DNA from: Geosiphon pyriformis
Lineage: Eukaryota; Glomeromycota; Glomeromycetes; Archaeosporales; Geosiphonaceae
NCBI GenBank assembly: GCA_016748015.1
Contig: JAAOMT010000040.1
Coordinates: 570,028 to 634,027, forward strand
Reading direction: 5' to 3'
Length of the DNA: 64,000 nt
The notes below the pieces were generated by a model. It ran no database searches. It saw only the letters and a program-made list of their open reading frames with translations, and was not told where the DNA came from. How positions within the stretch are numbered: position 1 is the first letter of the stretch; every line of letters begins with the position of its first letter. The position numbers were made by a program, and so were the translations under genes. This document shows, in pieces, positions 1,730-37,129 of this stretch.

Positions 1730-4700
1730 ATATTAAGACTAAGATTAACATAATTATAAAAAGTTGGACCAAGAAGCAAACAATTCTTAAATTATTGCCT
1801 AAATTTTGGGCTAATTAGTATATTTTTTTAAGCTATATAAATAATAGTGCTTTTTCAAATATTATAAATGTTATTGGCTTCAAAAAATTGGTTTGAATAA
1901 TCAAAATTCTGCCAGATAAGAAAACTGCAGATCTAAATAGCATTTCAAATAAGTTATAAAAACATTATAATAATAAAGTTCTTAGGTGTTTTTTGGTTCT
2001 TTTAAACTTATGTTTGATTTTAAATATAATTTAACTTTATAAAAAAAAGCTTGAATTTTAATAATATTTAAGTTTAATAAATAGAAAAAAACTTAAACAA
2101 ATATTTAGTCTATTATTCTAATTAAGACAGCTAGAAAAGTTTTTTCTAAGATCTTTTTAAATCAAATTTTATTTGCCTATAGCAAATTTAGTGTTTTTTG
2201 TAAAAATAACTTTTCTGTTTAAAAAAAACTTTAATGCAGTCTCCTATTTTTGCTATTAGTTTAATAATTGAAGATATTGTTACAGATAATTATTTGAAGT
2301 ATTAAAATAAATAACAAATCTATAACTTGATACTTAATAGTTAATAATATTATTGATAGTTTTTAAAAGTTTTGGTATTTGAAAATTTTGGTTAAGTTTT
2401 TTGTATAATAAACAGAGATTTACTTAGTAGTTGTTTTTTCGAATTTTTTTTTTAGTAGAGATCAGTTTAATTTGATATTGTGTTTTTATGATAAGTTATC
2501 TTTAAGTTTTCACCTTTATTTTCGGGTTTTTTATTAGTTTATTTTTAATATTAATATCTTAATGCTTAATCTCTTAAACAATTAGTATACAAAACAAAAT
2601 AAAGAAAAAAAAATAAAAGAAAAATAAAAAATTAATATTTTATTAATAGCTATGATTAAGAGTTATTGGTCTAATATAGTTAAATAGCAAATACTATTAA
2701 CATAAGTTGTTAATAAAGTCGAAAAATAATAATGTTAATTTAATAAAGAGAATAACATAAATTAGATAATAAAATAATAATTTTATTTAATATTTAGATG
2801 ATTCTATTTTAAAATATAGAAAACTATTTTTTAAAAAAAGAGTATGTTATAAATATTTATTGTTAACTAATTAAAAACTTGTCTGAATATAAATTGGATA
2901 AATTGTTAAAATTTTCATACTTTTTATACTTTTGATATTACTGCTATATATATATAATTCTTATTATACAAGATCTTATATATTTTTACTTTTTTTTATA
3001 CTACTTTCTAAAACTATGCTTATTTTTAAGCAATATGCCATAATTTTTTGCAAATATACATATTTCTAAAAATATGCTTATATGTTGAATTCTATTTTTT
3101 TATTTATTTTTCTATAAATAACAATATCTTAAAAAAAACAGAAAAATTTGGTTGGTTTTATAAAACATATATAAAACATATAATTCTGTTGAATAGTACT
3201 ATTTAAAAACTAGTTTATAATATATCAAGATGTATAAGAGATTATTAGTTTCTTTAATAATATTTATAAAAACAAAATAAATAGAATAATAATAAATTTT
3301 GGCCTTACAAATAGATATTGGATATATAATAAGCTAAATTAAAATAAAATATTCTCTTTTTTCTTTGGAGAATTTTTTATAATCTTCTTTTGTGTAAGAT
3401 TAAAAAACATAAACATTTATATAAATATTAGATTAATATTAAGTTTATAACCAAAACAGACAAAGTGGAAATTAAAGAAAAAAAATTTTTTTTTATACAA
3501 TTAGTGCTTTTATTAATAATACTATTTAAATTAAAATAGATAGGCTTTTATACAATATATATTAGATATTGTTAGTAAATTTTTTTTAATTAATAATATC
3601 TCAATTAACAATAATAAAACAATGACTATTTTTATTAATTAAAAAATTAAAGATGCTTTTTTAAGAATTAGTGATTTGCTAATTTCAATTGCTAAAAATA
3701 ATGTATTGTATAAATATTTGTGAATTTTTTTGTTAACAAACAGATTTTTAAGTCTAGTTTAGGCAAAACTTAATCTAATATCAGATTTTTTTTAAATATA
3801 ATGTTAAAAAAAACTGTTACAAATAAGCAGTTTTTATATTTAGTTTTGGCTGTTTTGCAGTTTATAATTGGTTATCAATTATAGTTTAGTTTTATTTTTT
3901 TTGGAGTTTGTTGTTAATAAAATGTTTTGGTTAGAAAAAATCTTAAAATAAAAGCTGACTTATTCTACAATTTTTTTAATAAAATACTGTATTATTTTTT
4001 ATTATATAATTTAAAGATATTTAAACAAATTTAAGCCAAAAGAAAGATTGTTTTAACTATTATATTTGCAAATATTACTGGTGTTCTTGATTAGCTTTTT
4101 AATTACAGATTTTTGGATCTTTAAGTTTTAGGCTAAAGTTTTTTGAATTTTTTATAGTATTTAATCAGATTGTAAGTCAGTTTATTTAATAATTTTTTGG
4201 TTAGAGTAGTGTATATTTTTTTAAACAATAGTTTTTTATTAGTAAATAATTTGTCTTATGTATTTTCAGTCTTGACAAGTTTTTTATGTTAAGAGTATTA
4301 AGCGGTTTATTGTACTTTAATAAAATTAATTCTTTAAAAAAATTTGGTGTGACTTTTTGTAATAGACTTTTAAATAAATAGAACAGAATTATGGATTAAA
4401 AAATATTTTATTAATAGAAAAGATTAGATTCTAAAAGACCTATGTTTTTTTTAGTTTATGCTAATATTAAAGTTTTTGCATAATGCTAACCTTGTGCTGG
4501 CCTTTTTTGGTATGATTTTTAAATCAAAAAACAATAGTGTTTTATTAATAGATAAGTTTTTGACTTTAAAAGAACATTTACATAAAGTTTAGTTAAATAC
4601 AATTAATATATATACTGATAATTCTTTTAAAAATTTAGGTTTTTTTGCTGTTATTAATAAAACTGCTTCTTATTTTTTTGAAGTAGATTTGAAAGTTGAA

Positions 4701-5970
4701 ATCAAGATCCATGAGTTGTTATTTTTAACACTAATTGAATTGCAGGTTGTTGTTTTGTCTTTAAAATATGTATCTTTTTCTTATGCTATAATTGTATATC
4801 TAAATAATTAAGCTGTTATAAATACATGCATTTTGAAGTTAGAGTTTTTAGGTTCTGATTTTTGCAATTATTGTTGAATAGAAAAAATTATATTGTAAAT
4901 TTGATTAAAGATAAAAATCTTTTAATAACTTAGTTAAAGATTAAAAAAAATTCAAAAATTTTAAACAATATTTGTGCTGATGTTTTGGTGAATAAAACTG
5001 TTTATTTTTTTCTGTTGTTCTTTAACAATGTACATAAATGCTTTATTAAGACTAATAATTTGATTTTATTTGATAATGCTTGTTATTTTATTTAAGATAA
5101 ATATAGTTTAATAAGTTATATCTAATAAAAAGCTAAGCTTGGTTTTAAGGTAATAAATAAATCTTTAATTCAGAAAATTAATTAAATTTAAACTATTATG
5201 ATTTGATATTTGACTTTATATATGTTTTTAAACTTTACTAATAAGACTTTGGCTAATTTGTATATATATTTTATAAAAGCAGTTCACAAAAAACTGTCTA
5301 TTATAGTTAAAAAGAAGCTTTATAATAGAAACTATTCGAAAATTTTGTGTCTATATTATAAGAAAATTAAATTTTCCAATTATATATTTATATGTTCAAA
5401 AAATACTAATTTTTACAAAAAAATAATATTTAATCAGATTGCAATTTAGAAGTCTTTGATAAAATTATATGTTTTATTATCTTCTATAATACTAAAATTT
5501 TTTTTTTATGTTTATTAAATATTAAATTTTATGCATTTTTTTATAAAAGTTTTGTGCTTAAAAATTGGTATTATAAAGCTGTACTGGTGTTTAATAATTA
5601 AAAAGAAGCTATTTGGGTTTTGGTTAAATTTATGAATAGTTTGAATAAGCATTATTATTTTGAATTGTAAAAATTTAAGTCTAAATACAAAGCTAATATA
5701 AAAAAATATGGTTTGGTTAATAATATTAAAATAGTGCTTAATAAGTCTTGCAATTTGGTATTGGATTTGTTAAATAAAGTGGTTAAATTAATTGGTATTA
5801 AAAAATTATTTAGTGTTAGTTTTGGTTTTTATAAGTTTTATTTGTTTTTTTAAGTCTAAATAGCTAAGTTACTATTTATATAAGAGTTTAATATTGTCTT
5901 AATTGGTTTAAATAACTGGTTATATGTAATAAAAATATAAATTACATTTAACTAAAACTTCTAGTTTTGA
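1730..5970 (+). mobile_element. LINE retrotransposon relic, heavily C-to-T eroded (copy 1)
   Basis: Conceptual translation on the plus strand, interrupted by many stops, follows the order of a LINE ORF2. An RT-like segment lies near 2,125-2,290 ('KTARKVFSKIFLNQ'). A connecting region lies near 4,095-4,250 ('RFLDL' then 'VLG'). An RNase H-like block lies near 4,600-4,830 ('IYTDNS', 'LIELQVV', 'VYLNN'). A zinc-knuckle-like C-terminal part lies at 5,210-5,449 ('LCLYY' where the related copy has 'VCLFCG'). The same order occurs, better preserved, in the copy at 24.7-26.4 kb. Almost every departure is C-to-T or G-to-A, and CpG is nearly absent. Exact ends are unclear; no poly(A) tail or target duplication was recognised. 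The element is dead. Family assignment is by recall of Glomeromycete LINEs. Confidence 0.72.
5210..5449 (+). pseudogene. LINE ORF2 C-terminal fragment (within copy 1)
   Basis: This 79-codon open stretch is the longest surviving piece of the eroded LINE. Its pattern 'FTNKTLANLY' then 'YFIKAVHKKLSI' aligns by eye with 'FTSKWVAGFW' then 'YFIKALYHQLSI' in the LINE at 25,550-25,640, and 'YNRNYSKILCLYY' with 'YDKSYPSVVCLFC'. It is not an independent gene. The cysteine and arginine codons expected from the younger copy have become Tyr, Lys or Asn, as CpG deamination on both strands would produce. Confidence 0.75.
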
Positions 5971-6528
5971 TTTTGTATACTAAATAACAATTAAATTGTA
6001 TTTATTAAACTTTAATAAAAAAAATTATATTTATAAAAATATTTTAAAATGCTTTTTTAAAAAAATTATTTAATAAAAAATTAGAAATTAATGATATTAT
6101 AAAAAAAAGATTAAACATAATATTTATTGCTTAAAAAAATTAACAAATTAATAAATTATATAAGTTAAAATATTTTTTATAATATAATAGAATAATTATA
6201 ATTAAAAGTTTATTAAATAAAAATATGTTTCAATTAAAATTTTTTTAAATATATATTAATTACATATATAAATAAAAATATTATAATTTTTTTTATTAAA
6301 AAATATATTTAATTAAATTTTAATTTTTAATATTAGTTTTATAATTAAAATAAAATTATAAAATATAAATAATTTTATTTATATACAGTTTATAAAAAAA
6401 TAAAATATGTAAAAATTATAAAATTTTTAAATTATTTTTGGCTAATATAATAAAAAATTTTATAAATTACAAAACTTTAATATATAAAATTAAATTTACT
6501 ATTATTATAGTTAAAACTTTTACTTTTT
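5971..6528. other. AT-rich spacer
   Basis: Nearly pure A/T sequence between the end of the LINE relic and a duplicated AT-rich block. I see no gene or element end in it. Confidence 0.5.
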
Positions 6529-6880: not shown

Positions 6881-7486
6881 AATTATTGATTTTTTTTAAA
6901 AAATATATAAGTAAAATTTTTTAAAACCATAAAAAAAGCATTTATACTTAAATTAATATAATATATCTTAATTTGTATAATTGTTAATTTTTATAAAATA
7001 TATTAAATAAATATTTACTAAAAAGTATAATTAATATTTAATATTAAATTCTAAAAATACTAATATAAAGCATAGAATTATATTAATGTATTGTCTTTTG
7101 TTAATAGTATAAATTATCTCTTTACTTTCAAATTTTTTTATTATTTTTGAAAAAAATAGTAACTGAAATATTTATAAGACTGATTTTCTATATTAAATTT
7201 TTACTAATTTAATTTGTTTATTAAAATTAAATTATCTTTTTAATTATAGTCAAACCTAAAATAATTCATGTTAAGATAACTTATAATCTGTGATAAGTCA
7301 TAGTATTTTAAATTTACCAATTTAGTAATTAAAAAATTCTTATATTTATAATTCATAATTTTTTACTATCAGTATAAATTATCTTAAATGTTAGATTTAG
7401 TTTAAATTTTGCTAATTCTGGTAAAATTGCAGTAAAACAAACTAATATTTCTATAATTAAAAATGCTATATAATAATATAATATTA

Positions 7487-7735
7487 CAGTAAACTCTCTC
7501 TATAGTCCCTCTGGTTATAGTCACTATCTTCTTATAATTACATTTTTTTAAAAACCAAAACCATTTATATATAATATTATCTCCTTATAGTCACTTTTAT
7601 TATATATATCTTCTTATAGTTTCTATCCTCACAAATATGATAGCAGAATATAAGTAATTTCTACTTTCTATAGTCACACTATAATCATATGATATTAAAT
7701 ATGAACATCAAATATCATCTCATATTTAATCAAAT
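7487..7735. repeat. Left subterminal region with iterated TATAGTCAC motifs
   Basis: TATAGTCAC occurs exactly at 7,516, 7,586 and 7,669, with near matches at 7,501 (TATAGTCC) and 7,615 (TATAGTTTC). Similar TATAGTCC and TATAGTTATCAC motifs lie at 11,677 and 11,693 near the right end. Short iterated motifs inside the TIRs are typical transposase-binding arrays in some DNA transposons; that role here is inference. Confidence 0.55.
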
Positions 7736-8702
7736 ATGTACAGTCAGGGAGATTTCCTAATTGTCAATAGAAATCATTTTTTTATGGTAATAAAAAAATT
7801 AGAGAAGTTTTTGGAAACAATTGTAGAACACTAAACAAAATTTCTCAAATATTACAACATTCAATTACTCTTCTTTATAAGCCACCACTGCCATTAGAAA
7901 ACAATGACAGAATTATTATATCTGGCTTGTTGTTTGTGGGTATTATAAGAGTTTTAATAATAGTTGACATATAGTACAGTACTGCTGCTCTTGGTGCTTT
8001 AGAAACTAGTGGTGCTTCAGAGGCTAATAGTGCTTTGAAGGCTGTTGCTGCAAGTATCAATAAAGTTACTCTGAATCAAACTTTGGCTAACAAGATTATT
8101 TTTTCTCCATATTAAGAGAAGGAATTAACAGATCTACAAGCAAGAATAATGGCCCAATGGGATTCTTCAGGAACAAATTTGTTAATAGGACATTGCTTGA
8201 GCAAATCAACTAAGAATGGAGTTTGAATTTATCTTTTCTTAAGAAGAAAAATATAACCAGTAATAAAATTCAGAGCATGAAAATTCCGATATATACCCAA
8301 TAAATACATTTTCACACCAACTTTGACATCCTTGATTAAAAAAAAGCTTTATACTAGCAATCATATTCATCATTTAACCAATATTTAGTATTAGCAAGCA
8401 AAAGTTTGACTAATAGTTTTAAAAATGTATTAAAAATCAACTTTTTTGAGGCAAATAAATTCATGTTGAATGCTTTTCATAATCCAAACATAATCATGCA
8501 GAATAGAGATTTGAACTTAGACTCAACATATCATGTTTTAAAAATGCCAATTATAAATGGTAATGCATCCAACCCAAGGTAAACAAAACTGTACACAATA
8601 CAATATATTTCTAATTTCTTGAAGGTATTTATTAGGCTGTCACACAATTAACTTACTAAGCTTCGAAAACATAATCACTTAAAAGAGGTATTAGAGAGTT
8701 AA
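7735..8702 (+). pseudogene. Passenger coding region A of the inner transposon, unknown function
   Basis: I do not recognise this protein. Frame 1 reads coding-like from about 7,735 to 8,220 with residue strings such as 'SALKAVAASINKVTLNQ' (around 8,030) and 'ELTDLQARIMAQWDSSG' (8,115-8,173). Frame 3 continues from about 8,240-8,400 to a stop cluster at 8,700 ('SKSLTNSFKNVLKINFFEA', 'NAFHNPNIIMQNRDLNLDS'). A single frame change therefore lies between 8,220 and 8,400. In-frame stops (TAG, TAA, TGA) are consistent with C-to-T or G-to-A changes. The balanced amino-acid content inside such AT-rich DNA argues for a real former gene of roughly 300 residues. Its end is only 33 bp from the end of convergent region B. 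The start codon is uncertain. No catalytic motif was seen. Confidence 0.5.
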
Positions 8703-8735
8703 TAATAGGTAATAGTTGTGATTTTATTAACAGAT

Positions 8736-9849
8736 TTACATTTTTTGATGATCTGTTTCTTTATTTGTTACTGGAATTGGTTTTTAAGTACCTAACAATG
8801 TTTTTTTAATTTGCCTTGCTTTAAAAAAGTCTATTCTTTTTATCTGTGCAATTTCACTGAATTTTTTTATTTCTTCACTTAATATCTATTCATGACTAAT
8901 ATAATGAAAAACACAATTAGAGACATTTGGATTTACAAACTGTGTCTTTCTTATCTGAACTCGAAATCAATTTGATTCAGCAATAAAGCTAGGATGTGTA
9001 TGAGACCTGTATATTTTACTTTTAGAATATTCAATGACATTAAAAAAGTTAGTATGTAATCTCTCAAATTTGATACAGTTATGTGCTGCAATTTCCCAAT
9101 GCCATTGTGAAGATATAGAAGGAATTAATGATTTGAGCATTTTGTTAATTTCTTCAAGTATTGCATCATGGTCTTGATGTTGATTTGAAAGTTTAGATTG
9201 AGAAATTACAATTCTTTCTTGAATCAGCTTACAAACTTCAAGCTTCAATCATAGCCATTGTTTTTTATCAGCAATTTCAATTGATTGGTAAATAGGATGG
9301 CACCGAGCAGACCAAATTGGTATAAACATTTGTTTAGCTGCGAGTCTTAATAAAGACCTATTGAAACAAACTCCAGTGCGAAAGTTAATAAGTGCTTGTA
9401 AATAAAAAAAGACTTGTTTATACTTTAATCTGAATGTGAGATCTGTTTCATTTTGGACACATTCTAAGTAACCTTCAACAAATGAATTTTTCTTAGAAAC
9501 AACATATGGCCACATTAATTTGGAAGTCATTACATGTCTATATATATTACATATTGAATCTCATGACTTATAATGATCAGAATATTTTTTAAAAAACTGC
9601 AGTTGACTTTCACTCTGATATCTCTGACATTGTGCAAAGTATTTTATATCAATATTCTAATTGATATAGGCATTGCTGTGTTTGGAGAGCTTGACAACAT
9701 GACATTGTGCTATTTTCTATGTAATTATGCAAGTATGTGGAGAATCAAATTGACAGCCTTTATTATTGATAATCAGTTGGGGGTAAGAGACAAAAAGTAT
9801 TACAGATGCATTATCAAAATTAGGTTTTTTTTTACTGAGAATTTGTCAT
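8736..9849 (-). pseudogene. Passenger coding region B of the inner transposon, unknown function
   Basis: One continuous minus-strand frame runs from 9,821 to a TAA at 8,738-8,736 (362 codons) with seven internal stops but no frameshift. A possible ATG is at 9,849, joined only if the A9 run near 9,830 carries an indel. Recognisable blocks are 'FDNASVILFVSYPQ' (about 9,815), 'HSNAYIN' (about 9,675), 'FAQCQRYQSESQLQFF' (about 9,630), 'YLQALINFRTG' (about 9,390), 'RLAAKQMFIPIWSARCHPIY' (about 9,340) and 'ISSQWHWEIAAHNC' (about 9,110). The sequence is reminiscent of a repeated but unnamed Glomeromycete protein; I cannot give a function. All stops are explicable by one transition from CAG/CAA/CGA/TGG. 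It is divergent from the transposase, whose ATG is about 200 bp away. Confidence 0.6.
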
Positions 9850-10046
9850 TTGCACTTAAAATTCTACAGTTGGATTAAAATCTTTATTTTTATAATTTGG
9901 CCACTTTTTATAATCTGAGACACCTCATATGACATGAGACACTTCACATGTCCAATTAGATATAAGGCAAAATAATGTTTGAGACATAACAGATATATCA
10001 ATGCATTATAAAAACAAAATACAATAAAAAGTATGTTCTTATTAAC

Positions 10047-11606
10047 ATGCCAAAAAACACGAACCAAAAGTAAGCAGCAATCTCCTTAGAGACTAAAAAG
10101 GCTCTCTGCTAGTACAAACTAGAGCATCTTGACTACTCAGCAAATAGACTTATCAAAATATTTAATCTAAAGGTTAACTGCTCTACTGTAACAAAGATAC
10201 TAGCAAAATCAGACTGATAGATTGAAAAGAATATATCTAGCAACTCTGGTCAATTAACAAAGAACAAAAAAAAGATGTTTCCAAAGATAAATGATGCACT
10301 GGGAGAATAAATGCTTGAAGCACTAGCTATCAACTGCATTCTTATTGGAAAAATTTTACAAATAAAAGCCCTCAAGTTTGCTGAAAAGTTTCTGGAAAAA
10401 AATAATTTTAAAGCATCAGATAGTTGGTTAGAAAAGTTCAAGAAATGTCATAATTTGCACCACATTAAGATGCATGGTGAAGCAAACAGTGCTCCTTTAA
10501 AAATTTTACCAGAGGAATGAGAGAAACTACATGAGATTATCAATGAATATGATCTAAATAATGTTTACAATGCTGATGAGACAACATTATTCTTTAGAAT
10601 GCCACCAAATGCAACTTTGGCAACAAGATCTACCTCTGGCACCAAGCATGATAAGAGTTGAATTACCATACTTTTTGCTTGTAATGCAACAAGCAGTATC
10701 AAGTTGCAGCCTTTAATTATTGGTAAAGCCGCAAAGCCACAATTTTTTCACAATATTAATATGAATGCACTTCCAATCACTTATCATTACAATATAAAAG
10801 CATGAATGCGAACTAATATTTTTAGTAAATGACTTAATTTATTAAATGAAAAAATGTGTCACAAGAAAAAAAAGATTTTGCTATTGTTTGATAATGCTGG
10901 TTCTCATGGTAGAGAATCTTTCATATTATCTAATATTATGATTAAATACCTACCATCTAATACAACATCCCATTTGCAACCATTAGATGCAAAAATTATT
11001 GCATCTTTTAAGACACAATACCAAAAGTTGTTTTTTTTCCATCTTATTAATCAGTATGATGGCAAGATTCCAATATCAACAGTAACATTAAAGGATGCAG
11101 TTGACTTTCTAATTGATGCATGGTCAACAGTAACAACAACTACAATCCAAAACTATTGGCGTTATACAGGAATTCTGAATAATAGTCAAATGCCAGCCCA
11201 TCTATTAGATATTAAACAAGAACTTCTATAAGAAGTACAAGTTTTTATTAACCACGTTAATATTGATAAACTATTGGCAATAGACTTCATTAATATTGAC
11301 AAGTTTGAATCATTATTCACTTATGCCTCAAAGGATGAAATTGTGGATCTTATTAACAACAAGTATAGTGGAAATTTTAATGCAAATGAAGATTTAGAAA
11401 GTGAAAATGAAGATAAACCTTTGCCTTTGCTATCTACACATCAAGGTAAAATTGCACTTGAAGATACATTGCACTATTGTGAAGAGCAGTATAGTGAAAA
11501 AGATGATTCAGACTTTTTTAAAACTTTAAGAACATTAATTTGTAATACTGTTCTCAAAGTTCAAGAAGAAAAAAAACAGTTGCAAATAAATAGCTTTTTT
11601 AAATAA
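10047..11606 (+). pseudogene. Pogo/Tigger-type DDE transposase of the inner element (ten nonsense changes)
   Basis: This transposase would bind the element's TIRs and cut and paste it. From ATG 10,047 one uninterrupted frame of 519 codons ends at TAA 11,604-11,606 with ten internal stops and no frameshift. Order: N-terminal psq/CENP-B-like helix-turn-helix (residues about 10-55, 'LIKIFNLKVNCSTVTKIL'); a second CENP-B-type HTH (about 85-150, 'KALKFAEKF' then 'SDSWLEKFKK'); DDE domain with 'YNADET' (about 175), 'LLLFDNAGSH' (about 277) and 'LPSNTTSHLQPLDAKI' (about 302-320), so all three acidic residues survive; then an acidic tail. Length is normal for the family. Stops are TAA, TAG and TGA, nearly all one transition away from Gln, Arg or Trp codons. 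Unable to make full-length protein as it stands. Confidence 0.85.
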
Positions 11607-11763
11607 AATATATATAATTGGTTATTATATTATGCATGTAATATATAGATCATGTGATAAGATATAGATCATTTTTTATAGTCCTATCTCTCTATAGTTA
11701 TCACAAATGTGCTGACTAAAAGATATGATTATAAAGAGAGTTCGCTGTACTTACTTAACAAAG

Positions 11764-12575
11764 TAATTATTAATTGTGTAAGTAATCAAGTTAGAGTTCT
11801 GAATTGTTCTAAGTTTTAAATTATCATTAATTATATGAGTAATCAAGTCAAGATTTTGATTTGTTCTAAGTTTTAAATTATTATTAATTTTATAAGTAAT
11901 TAAGTCAAAATTTCAAATTGTCTTAAGTTCTAAATTATCATGAATTATATAAGTAATTAAGTTGAAGTTTCAAATTGTTTCAAGTTCTAAATTATTATTG
12001 ATTGTATGAATAATTAAGTTAGAGTTTTGAATTATTTAAGTTTTAAATTATTACTAATTTTGTAAGTAATCAAGTTAGAATTTCAAATTGTCTTAAGTTC
12101 TAAATTATTATTGATTATATAAGTAATTAAATTGGAGTTTCAAATTGTTCTAAGTTCTAAATTATCATTGATTATATAAGTAACTAAGTCGAAATTTTAA
12201 ATTGTTTCAAGTTTTAAATTATTATCTATTGTATAAATAATCAAAATGAAGTTTTAAATTGTTCCAAGTTTTAAGTCAAAGTTCTAAATTGTTCCAAGTT
12301 CTAAATTATTATTAATTGTATGAATAATTAAATCAGAATTTTGAATTGTTCTAAGTTCTAAATTATTATTAATTGTATAAGTAATTAAGTTAAAGTTTTA
12401 AATTGTTCCAAGTTTTAAATTATTACTAACTTTGTAAGTAATCAAGTTGAAGTTTTAAATTGTTTCAAGTTCTAAATTATTATTGATTGTATGAGTAATC
12501 AAATTAGAGTTTCAAATTGTTTTAAGTTTTAAATTATTATCAATTATGTGAGTAATCAAGTCGGATTTTTAAATT
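11764..12575. repeat. 57-bp tandem (satellite-like) array, about 14 degenerate units
   Basis: The unit reads approximately 'attattaattgtataagtaa' followed by 'tcaagt', 'agtttcaaattgtt' and 'aagttctaaatt'. Successive unit starts lie about 57 bp apart (for example 11,766, 11,823, 11,880). One unit near 12,240-12,300 is partly deleted. The array starts 15 bp right of the inner transposon and ends just before the outer transposase, so it belongs inside the outer element. Differences between units are mostly C/T or G/A. Confidence 0.8.
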
Positions 12576-34800: not shown

Positions 34801-34882
34801 TAATAGTGTCATAGAGACTGGAATATTTTGGAAATTTCTAATTCAGAAAATAGTTTGGATTCCAATCCACTCACTCTTGTCC

Positions 34883-37129
34883 ATGGCTTCAGTACCAACC
34901 TTGCCTCCAATAAGTTCTTTTCCTTATGAGAATATTTTACCACCACTCTACTCGACCACAAGCAATAAAAAATTACCTTCAAAATCTCTTCATTATCAAA
35001 ATGAACGAAATCTGCGAAATTCTCAATATTCTTCGTCAACAACTCAATCCAGTTTTTCTTCTATAAATTCTCAAATAAAACAACAATCAACATCTCCTGG
35101 CTCATACACTTCCCTTCTTTCCTCCTCCTCTTCCTCCTCCTCCTCCGCCTCACCACTTTTGAAAAATTTAAATGTGGACTTCATTCAAGAACAGCCTAGT
35201 CTACCCCCGCATACATCTTACCAGTCATCACCAAACTTGCGAATGAGATCCCCTCCAAATCATTTCTCACAGCCTTCATTAAGGTCCCCTTATTCTCCTT
35301 CCTCCTCATTCTCCCAATATCAATCACCTGTCCTCTCATTACCACCAACACCATCACCAACACCAACTGCACTTGTTCATCCAACTTCCTTTCGTCTGCC
35401 ACCATTATCCCCACCGCAGACCGAACAACAATTGCCCTACATTTTTTCACCCCGAATTCCTCCCGCTAATTCTAACTTTTTGATTCAACCGATTCAACAA
35501 CCATCTGCATCAAATCTATTATCTGAACAAACATCATCTCCAACTGTGTCTTTGGAAAATTCGTTTAATCAGCCAGAATTAACAACATCCCCTCGGCATT
35601 CTTTTCAAGATTCAAGGAGTCATTCAACCCAACCTATCATAGCTGAACCATTTGTCACTGTCACCCCAGAATTAAATAATAGACCACCAAGACGAAGACG
35701 TCGTCCTCCTTTTTCCTATTCGACCCTTATCGCTCGAGCTATTCTTGATTCCCCAGAACGTCGGTTAACACTGCGTGAAGTCTATCAATGGATTATGGAA
35801 AATTTTCCACAATTATACAAGCCCGATGATACCGGTTGGCAGGTTCGTGCAACTGTTAAAATCTTACAAAAAATCCTTTTTCATGAGTAATAAAAGCATG
35901 TCATTCCTTTTTTACGAAAAAAGTCTGCCACTGCGTTTATAAATTTGGAAAATATTTTCTACTACTGTGACAATACAGCTAATCCAGTTCCACTTGATTC
36001 CTATTTCTAGAATACGATTCGTCACAATTTGTCTTTGAACAAGTGTTTCAAAAAGGTGCCACGTTCCGATGCTGATTTGGGTCATTCTTCAACCTCATCA
36101 TCTACCGTCAACAAGGGCAAAGGTGGATATTGGACTATCGATCCTGAATATATGTCCTCATATCACAATGGCGTATTCGCTAGAGGTGGTGTACAAAAAC
36201 GAAGACCAGGTGAAGGTCACTCATCGACACATGTTGCTCCCAATGGAGGGGAAGATGATTGTTGTGGGAACGATTCTTATCATGGAGATAGTATGGCTGG
36301 TAGGCTTGTGAAAGTAGAAGATATTGACGGTGAAATTGTTGGAAATCATCAAAATCATCACCAACAAACGGGTCGATACGAGAATATTCGAACCGAGGAT
36401 CGAATATTTTCTACATCTTCTCGCTCAACTGCATTAAGCTCCTCAACATTATCCCAAGGAAAAAAGAACCGATTTCCCAAAAGACAATCTGAATTCGGGA
36501 ACCCTGATGATACCACTACCGTTGGAGTTACTAATATCAACTCACAATTTCTGGATAATGCAGGCAGCGGCCAGTATGTGTTTCATATCACAAATCCCTC
36601 CGATATAAATACTCCTTTACGTTCAATACAAGAACATAGAAACAGAGATCCAGCCTCGACACTAAATATATACAATGAAGGCGTCGTAAATATTAATATG
36701 CCTGAATGGAAGACAAGTAATCGTACTTTAAGCTCGAAAAGATCATATGTGGATGATAATTCAAATTTTAATCAATCACAGTCAAACCGAATAAACTCAC
36801 AGTCAACCTCAATATCTTCTCAACCAAATCGAGCAAATAAACGAAGAAAAAATGAGGAGAAAAATTTAAATCAAGCTTTGAATAATAGGAAACAATCAAT
36901 TCCGTATATTTCTCCAAATTATTCTCCACAATATTATCAACAGCTACCACAACATGCACAAAAACCCTATCAACAGGATTACAATGCGTCAACGATTCCT
37001 TCATTAAAATCTTCGACACCAGGGTCACATTATTTACCACAGGATCATCGATCAGCATCTCAACCATCCACATCTTCTCAACAAATACCACTAAATGCTT
37101 CGATAAAGATTCGTGATTTGTTAAATTAA
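34883..37129 (+). CDS. Forkhead (winged-helix) transcription factor, two exons
   Basis: Nuclear DNA-binding regulator of the fungal forkhead family. Exon 1 is 34,883-35,842 (320 codons) and exon 2 is 36,011-37,129; the 168-bp intron starts GTTCGT and ends CTAG and is phase 0. Predicted length 692 residues. Residues 1-264 are low-complexity Ser/Pro/Gln. The forkhead domain spans about 270-370: basic run and '[13 protein letters not shown]', '[15 protein letters not shown]', 'DDTGWQ' joined across the intron to '[16 protein letters not shown]', then '[12 protein letters not shown]'. The recognition helix W[11 protein letters not shown] is canonical. A 16-20 residue Ser/Thr-rich insert separates 'KVPR' from 'GKGGYW'. 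The C-terminal half is Asn/Ser/Gln-rich and ends 'IKIRDLLN'. ATG at 34,883 is preferred because the frame upstream has no other ATG. Sep1/Hcm1/Fkh subgroup not determinable. Confidence 0.93.
35843..36010 (+). other. Intron of the forkhead gene
   Basis: GT...AG intron (GTTCGT...ATTTCTAG) splitting the recognition helix just after 'GWQ'. Without splicing the frame ends at 35,890, truncating the domain. Confidence 0.9.

Follow-up and report, generated by a model that had tools for sequence, protein, structure and literature searches.

Pogo/Tigger transposons, members of the Tc1/mariner superfamily, are bounded by terminal inverted repeats (TIRs) starting with CAGT, flanked by TA target-site duplications (TSDs), and encode a transposase with a Tc5-type helix-turn-helix and a DDE_1 domain. 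All these features are shared by an element at positions 7487-11747 of a 64,000-nt stretch of the Geosiphon pyriformis genome (the window, to which coordinates refer unless stated otherwise), and the spacing of 31 residues between the last two aspartates of its transposase (DD31D) falls inside the range of DD29-36D given for Tigger in the available part of PMC8472432. What sets the element apart is its length of 4.26 kb and a foreign middle with two coding regions, A and B, which an initial annotation had read as passengers or accessory factors, or else as a nested element with decayed ends. Our analysis indicates that A-B is very probably the left part of a second, unrelated TIR transposon that became nested in pogo and, after the loss of its right end, was amplified along with pogo. 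Nested and composite DNA transposons are a general phenomenon and nesting is ordinary in mechanism; in common with such cases the inner element is broken and the outer one is still mobile, whereas the high copy number of the composite itself is a point of difference. The attractive view of A and B as a pair of new pogo accessory genes is thereby corrected to that of a cut-and-paste element that appears to have swallowed and amplified a piece of another. The composite was not recognized in the literature searched and may still be in print.

The G. pyriformis genome (124.7 Mb, 406 contigs) was searched with nucleotides 7487-11747, with 35 of 207 candidates being scored; copy counts are lower bounds. 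At least 34 end-to-end copies exist, the window copy included, and the 33 others (L009-L041) are 88-90% identical to it, matching from query positions 1-6 to 4256-4261; together with one 5'-truncated copy (L042) they form the set of 35 copies analyzed below. TA stands on both sides of 34/34 end-to-end copies, with differing flanking DNA, while the truncated L042 lacks the TA/TA pair. As TA flanks recur in differing surroundings, the 4.26 kb evidently transposed as one unit. The existence of the pogo element with TA-flanked TIRs is thus confirmed, far beyond chance, and so is the earlier proposal that A-B is cargo mobilized with pogo as a unit; the further full-length copies that it had suggested looking for number at least 33. 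Its assignment of a pogo-type DDE transposase also holds: with stops read as residues, Pfam detects DDE_1 (E 3.2e-38) and HTH_Tnp_Tc5 (E 9.6e-09), and a PDB search gives a weak match to CENP-B (1hlv, E 0.012). The outer boundaries are:

7485-7486: left TA TSD; TA/TA flanks in 34/34 end-to-end copies
7487-7507 (+): left TIR of pogo, 21 bp, 17/21 identical to the right TIR
11727-11747 (-): right TIR of pogo, 21 bp, 17/21 identical to the left TIR
11748-11749: right TA TSD, read in the window copy and the end-to-end copies

The same ends and the same transposase also occur without A and B. In S-type elements, a Sel1-repeat region replaces A-B, this foreign middle being what distinguishes them from pogo/Tigger. 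Two of them, L045 (C257) and L057 (C368), consist of element positions (el) 1-254, about 2 kb of other sequence, and pogo again from el 2172; both were read and the A-B segment is absent from both. Their ends are TA-CAGT...ACTG-TA, and both pogo ends with TA duplications are likewise present in L058 (C389), in which the Sel1 middle is kept and the transposase is largely deleted. In the middle of L057, Sel1 repeats are detected at E 9.4e-32 (Pfam, stops read as residues), and in that of L045 in one stop-free piece (E 1.3e-09), with two other pieces below the Pfam cut-off. In L057, about 840 bp of inserted sequence interrupt the transposase.

A and B, in turn, occur outside pogo. Protein searches of the genome gave 144 rows for A and 124 for B, including several places without a nearby transposase, of which we read one long A-B copy (L043, C268) whole, and read the ends in nine copies. 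L043 matches the composite only at 7739-8546 and 8549-9662 (L043rc 1811-2624 and 3160-4274), and contains a separate A-B element at L043rc ~1813-6249; with L043 as query, C326, C89, C204 and C117 match the whole span of ~1808-6250, and further copies are found in C399, C355, C125 and C188. The separate element is about 3.9 or 4.44 kb long and has a 15-bp TIR, CAGTYAGGGAGATTT, which is present at both ends in 8/9 copies when transitions are allowed, with one other base changed per end in C355. Exact 5-bp TSDs, rich in A+T, flank six of the nine copies (TAATA, three times TATTA, AATTT, AACTA), compared with a chance of 0.0036 per pair for such a match, and C355 is one transition off (TATTT/TACTT). 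A TA-duplicating, pogo-like nature of the separate element, considered on account of its CAGT start, is disfavored by the nine end pairs, which point to 5-bp TSDs. The A frame of this element has an ATG at a distance of 28 bp from the left terminus.

The two borders of A-B within pogo can be placed by these relatives, junctions being counted with transitions and up to three other differences allowed:

7487-7740: left end of pogo, also found in S-type elements without A and B (el 1-254 aligned in L045, L057 and L058)
7741-7755 (+): left TIR of the presumably nested A-B element (CAGTCAGGGAGATTT), intact; junction in 34/35 copies, all but the truncated L042
7741-9662: segment from the separate A-B element, right part gone; matches L043rc 1811-2624 and 3160-4274
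8546-8549: site of the extra 535 bp of longer A-B elements; identical joint in 35/35 pogo-borne copies
9658-9662: probable deletion junction between A-B element and pogo, with A-B homology to 9662 and S-type homology from 9658; 35/35 copies
9658-10046 (+): pogo sequence upstream of the transposase, common to S-type elements by alignment

The left border reads TA-CAGTCAGG, which is the left end of the separate element, and L045 breaks at the very TA that precedes CAGTCAGG. Since both junctions are common to the copies (34/35 and 35/35), they trace back to a single founder. Between the B of L043 and the columns of pogo-borne B we counted 103 transitions and only 3 transversions in 924 sites, which argues that the capture was recent relative to the burst. 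The idea of a nested element with decayed ends, put forward in the initial annotation, therefore comes close as to nesting and as to the right end, which is gone, and has to be revised as to the left end, which is kept at 7741-7755.

The association of the parts was tabulated over 115 of 144 rows for A, 108 of 124 for B, 82 of 83 for the transposase, 23 of 42 for the Sel1 middle and 25 of 60 for A-B matches reaching into the long B frame described below; the A and B rows left out were mostly low-scoring and many were further pieces of listed places. Neighbors were taken within 1.5 kb, and all counts are lower bounds. Among the 80 merged transposase places listed, 65 have B, 7 are S-type, none of them with B, and 8 have neither, one of the latter (C370:190530) having B about 2.1 kb away. 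Among the 108 B places listed, 65 have a transposase within the set distance and 21 lie in separate elements. A and B hence do not always travel inside the same TIRs, and we find side by side the two kinds of element that had been named as speaking against a unit with its own accessory genes, namely elements with the same TIRs and transposase that lack A-B, and A-B as an element apart, bounded by ends of its own. Some of the places without a listed partner adjoin pogo left ends (C314, C235) and some start where separate A-B elements start; A without B within 1.5 kb (e.g., C100:200795, C346:944981) perhaps represents short derivatives or fragments of the separate element or of the composite.

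The most probable course of events would begin with the insertion of the TIR element carrying A and a long B after position 7740 of an S-type pogo. A deletion from inside the long B into pogo would then have removed the right part of the inserted element, including its right TIR and the portion of B that encodes the N-terminus, together with the Sel1 region. As the pogo TIRs and transposase were left untouched, the composite would have remained mobilizable by the pogo transposase at TA sites, and would have become the most numerous form, with A and B riding as passengers. The order of events, the sufficiency of one deletion, the pogo transposase as mover and the lack of benefit from A or B are what we infer from the arrangement of the copies. 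Several observations weigh against this scenario. Two of the nine separate copies (C326, C399) show no 5-bp TSD in their flanks. No full A-B element was seen inside an S-type pogo among the sequences read, no search having been aimed there. The nested insertion is read from its left end, because the right-hand copy of the TSD is gone, and the S-type could have gained its Sel1 region independently. Finally, a listed partner is missing for 22 of the 108 B places and for 20 of the 114 A places, few of which were read.

The strongest competitor to nesting followed by deletion is an exchange of cargo, in which a bare pogo consisting of ends and transposase would have acquired Sel1 and, in a separate event, A-B at one and the same position, possibly through repair off a different template. 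This would account for two different middles between two identical borders, but we consider it improbable, as the left border is exactly the A-B element end, such that an insertion and one deletion in a Sel1-bearing form explain both borders. Moreover, no bare pogo was seen: of the 8 among 80 transposase places with neither middle, two were read upstream, where one (L044) adjoins an abundant repeat and the other (L065) continues into unrelated sequence over the 538 bp read.

A and B might alternatively be accessory proteins that aid pogo transposition and were retained for this reason. Some other superfamilies do have a second protein that assists transposition, and every one of the 34 end-to-end copies has A and B between the same TIRs; to judge from the lack of near-universal stops, the first stretch of A and a B of 326 codons were probably open in the founder; and the composite is the most numerous form, B standing beside 65 of the 80 merged transposase places listed. 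Yet elements with the same ends and transposase moved without A-B, as seen from the TA TSDs of C257 and C368 and of the transposase-deleted C389, B is N-terminally truncated, and A-B has its own ends elsewhere. The accessory role suggested by the initial annotation thus becomes very unlikely. Least credible is the capture of a host gene pair rather than of a transposon, in the manner of Pack-TYPE elements, for which one may adduce that other members of this pogo family bear Sel1 repeats, a host-type gene, but against which stand the repeated nature of the A-B element with its TIRs and exact 5-bp TSDs in 6/9 copies read, and the position of its left TIR at the pogo junction. According to the parts of PMC8903248 and PMC13317346 available, Pack-TYPE elements resemble the present ones in being TIR elements with non-transposon coding DNA (compare L058 with its Sel1 middle), whereas in the main pogo form the transposase frame is retained and the cargo is, on the nested-transposon reading, another transposon and not a host gene.

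Returning to the separate A-B element, L043 has a long B that runs for about 767 codons up to the stop of B if 23 in-frame stops are read through. The long B is spanned in one piece by 4 of 57 search rows (C268, C355, C399, C188), indicating that it is a single frame, and an additional open region that precedes it may represent another exon. It carries a zinc motif of the type CPxC...CPxC (CPAC...CPIC), and no DDE, integrase or other convincing match was found for it in Pfam; an AlphaFold model from the single sequence is of very low confidence (mean predicted local distance difference test [pLDDT] score 34.7). DNA-transposon superfamilies with TSDs of about 5 bp exist, Ginger for example, and the separate element agrees with them in TSD length and differs in that its B gives no convincing Pfam match, so that no superfamily can be named. 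We tentatively entertain the possibility, which we hold to be rather less than an even chance, that the element belongs to an undescribed DNA-transposon superfamily with the long B as its transposase, and that it entered pogo and a truncated copy then spread; the role of B is proposed because of its place in a TIR element and not of any domain match. Unclassified as it is, with 5-bp TSDs and a pair of orphan proteins, this TIR element is worth following. Separate copies further differ in a 535-bp stretch of the A region (L043rc 2625-3159), present in some and absent in others; those without it form a subgroup (C355, C399, C188, C125, C406) and lack it at the composite's own gap position. Next to the L043 element lies a piece resembling a zinc knuckle (Pfam zf-CCHC_2, E 0.0016, below cut-off).

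For the coding regions of the composite, a stop was counted as genuine only where nearly all copies share it:

7705-8253 (+): A, first open stretch, 185 codons; its initial codons are pogo sequence; no near-universal stop
8358-8579 (+): A, 74 further open codons, probably a downstream exon; no near-universal stop
9716-8739 (-): B, 326 codons, C-terminal fragment; the full frame in the separate element has about 2.5 times this length
9990-11603 (+): transposase open frame, without a stop common to nearly all copies
10047-11606 (+): pogo/Tigger-type transposase, ATG at 10047, 519 amino acids read through stops, DD31D

By this rule A (+), B (-) and the transposase (+) are open, in agreement with the initial annotation, but the window copy is broken in all three, with 4 in-frame stops in the first stretch of A, 6 in B and 10 in the transposase. 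The first stretch of A is free of stops in 2/35 copies (L023, L038), with some of the X residues there being gaps; an open B frame is absent from all 35 copies read (fewest stops 4), and an intact transposase is absent as well, the fewest stops being 5 in the 35 copies and 4 among the full-length matches listed (C300). As no near-universal stop is seen in the first stretch of A or in the 326 codons of B, the founder was probably open there. Between the start of the open B frame and the transposase ATG lie about 330 bp, rather than the 200 bp or so originally given, and the first in-frame ATG of B comes only at residue 63 because B is a C-terminal fragment. Other open frames also pass the shared-stop rule, one of them 119 codons long (9519-9875, +) and a few of lesser length. 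The earlier statement that A and B match no named domain is borne out: A has no convincing relative in Pfam or PDB (best PDB E 0.34), and B has none in Pfam, PDB, viral contigs or prokaryote genomes. Weak Pfam scores of B were taken as chance, namely RtcR (0.0031 in 1/20 copies) and DUF2672 (0.016 at best, 8/20). The AlphaFold model of the B fragment, from 20 near-identical rows, is of very low confidence (mean pLDDT 36.7). In A and B, codon positions 1 and 2 are not exempt from the differences between copies, and in view of this and of the few transversions relative to L043, a test of selection on A and B is powerless.

Decay of the copies is dominated by one type of change. Relative to the column majority, C-to-T and G-to-A changes are seen at about 16% of C and G sites, versus at most 1.4% for every other type; CpG sites reach about 50%, other contexts 15-24%. 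The 34 copies have a mean pairwise identity of 0.889 and a mean transversion divergence of 0.005, and the transition load is even across copies (17-28% of eligible sites). No strand-coherent tracts of these changes were found (mean runs z -0.5, range -2.7 to 2.0). Gradual cytosine deamination fits at least as well as repeat-induced point mutation (RIP). The available part of PMC8647823 states that neither Gigaspora margarita nor Mucoromycotina gave detectable RIP signatures.

As to the spread of S-type elements, a search scored 40 places, of which 4 start at the pogo TIR, contain the Sel1 middle and reach the transposase. Nine more begin at the TIR and end between query positions 881 and 1474, C389 being the one that was read, and other breaks lie at 2347 (C138) and at 706-724 (C354, C105, C125). 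In the mycorrhizal fungus Rhizophagus irregularis, Sel1-like genes are high-copy and CG methylation is reported (PMC8647823, in the part available), and the accessible portion of PMC11075540, on the same species, has Sel1 among the expanded genes and Tc1-Mariner in its family list. Sel1-bearing pogo elements are a possible vehicle for Sel1 gene expansion; a role of transposons in the spread of Sel1 becomes testable, and this pogo family merits further pursuit. In L045, an inverted similarity of 37-38 bp (81-84%) links the inner left border of the S-type (L045rc 293-330) with the region upstream of the transposase (window 9895-9931).

Two neighboring features of the window may be added. Arrays of a 57-bp tandem repeat (11766-12575) lie directly behind the composite. 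At 34877-37129, a Forkhead domain extends across two open frames (Pfam E 1.8e-14, and 0.0004, below cut-off), which probably represent one host gene with an intron.

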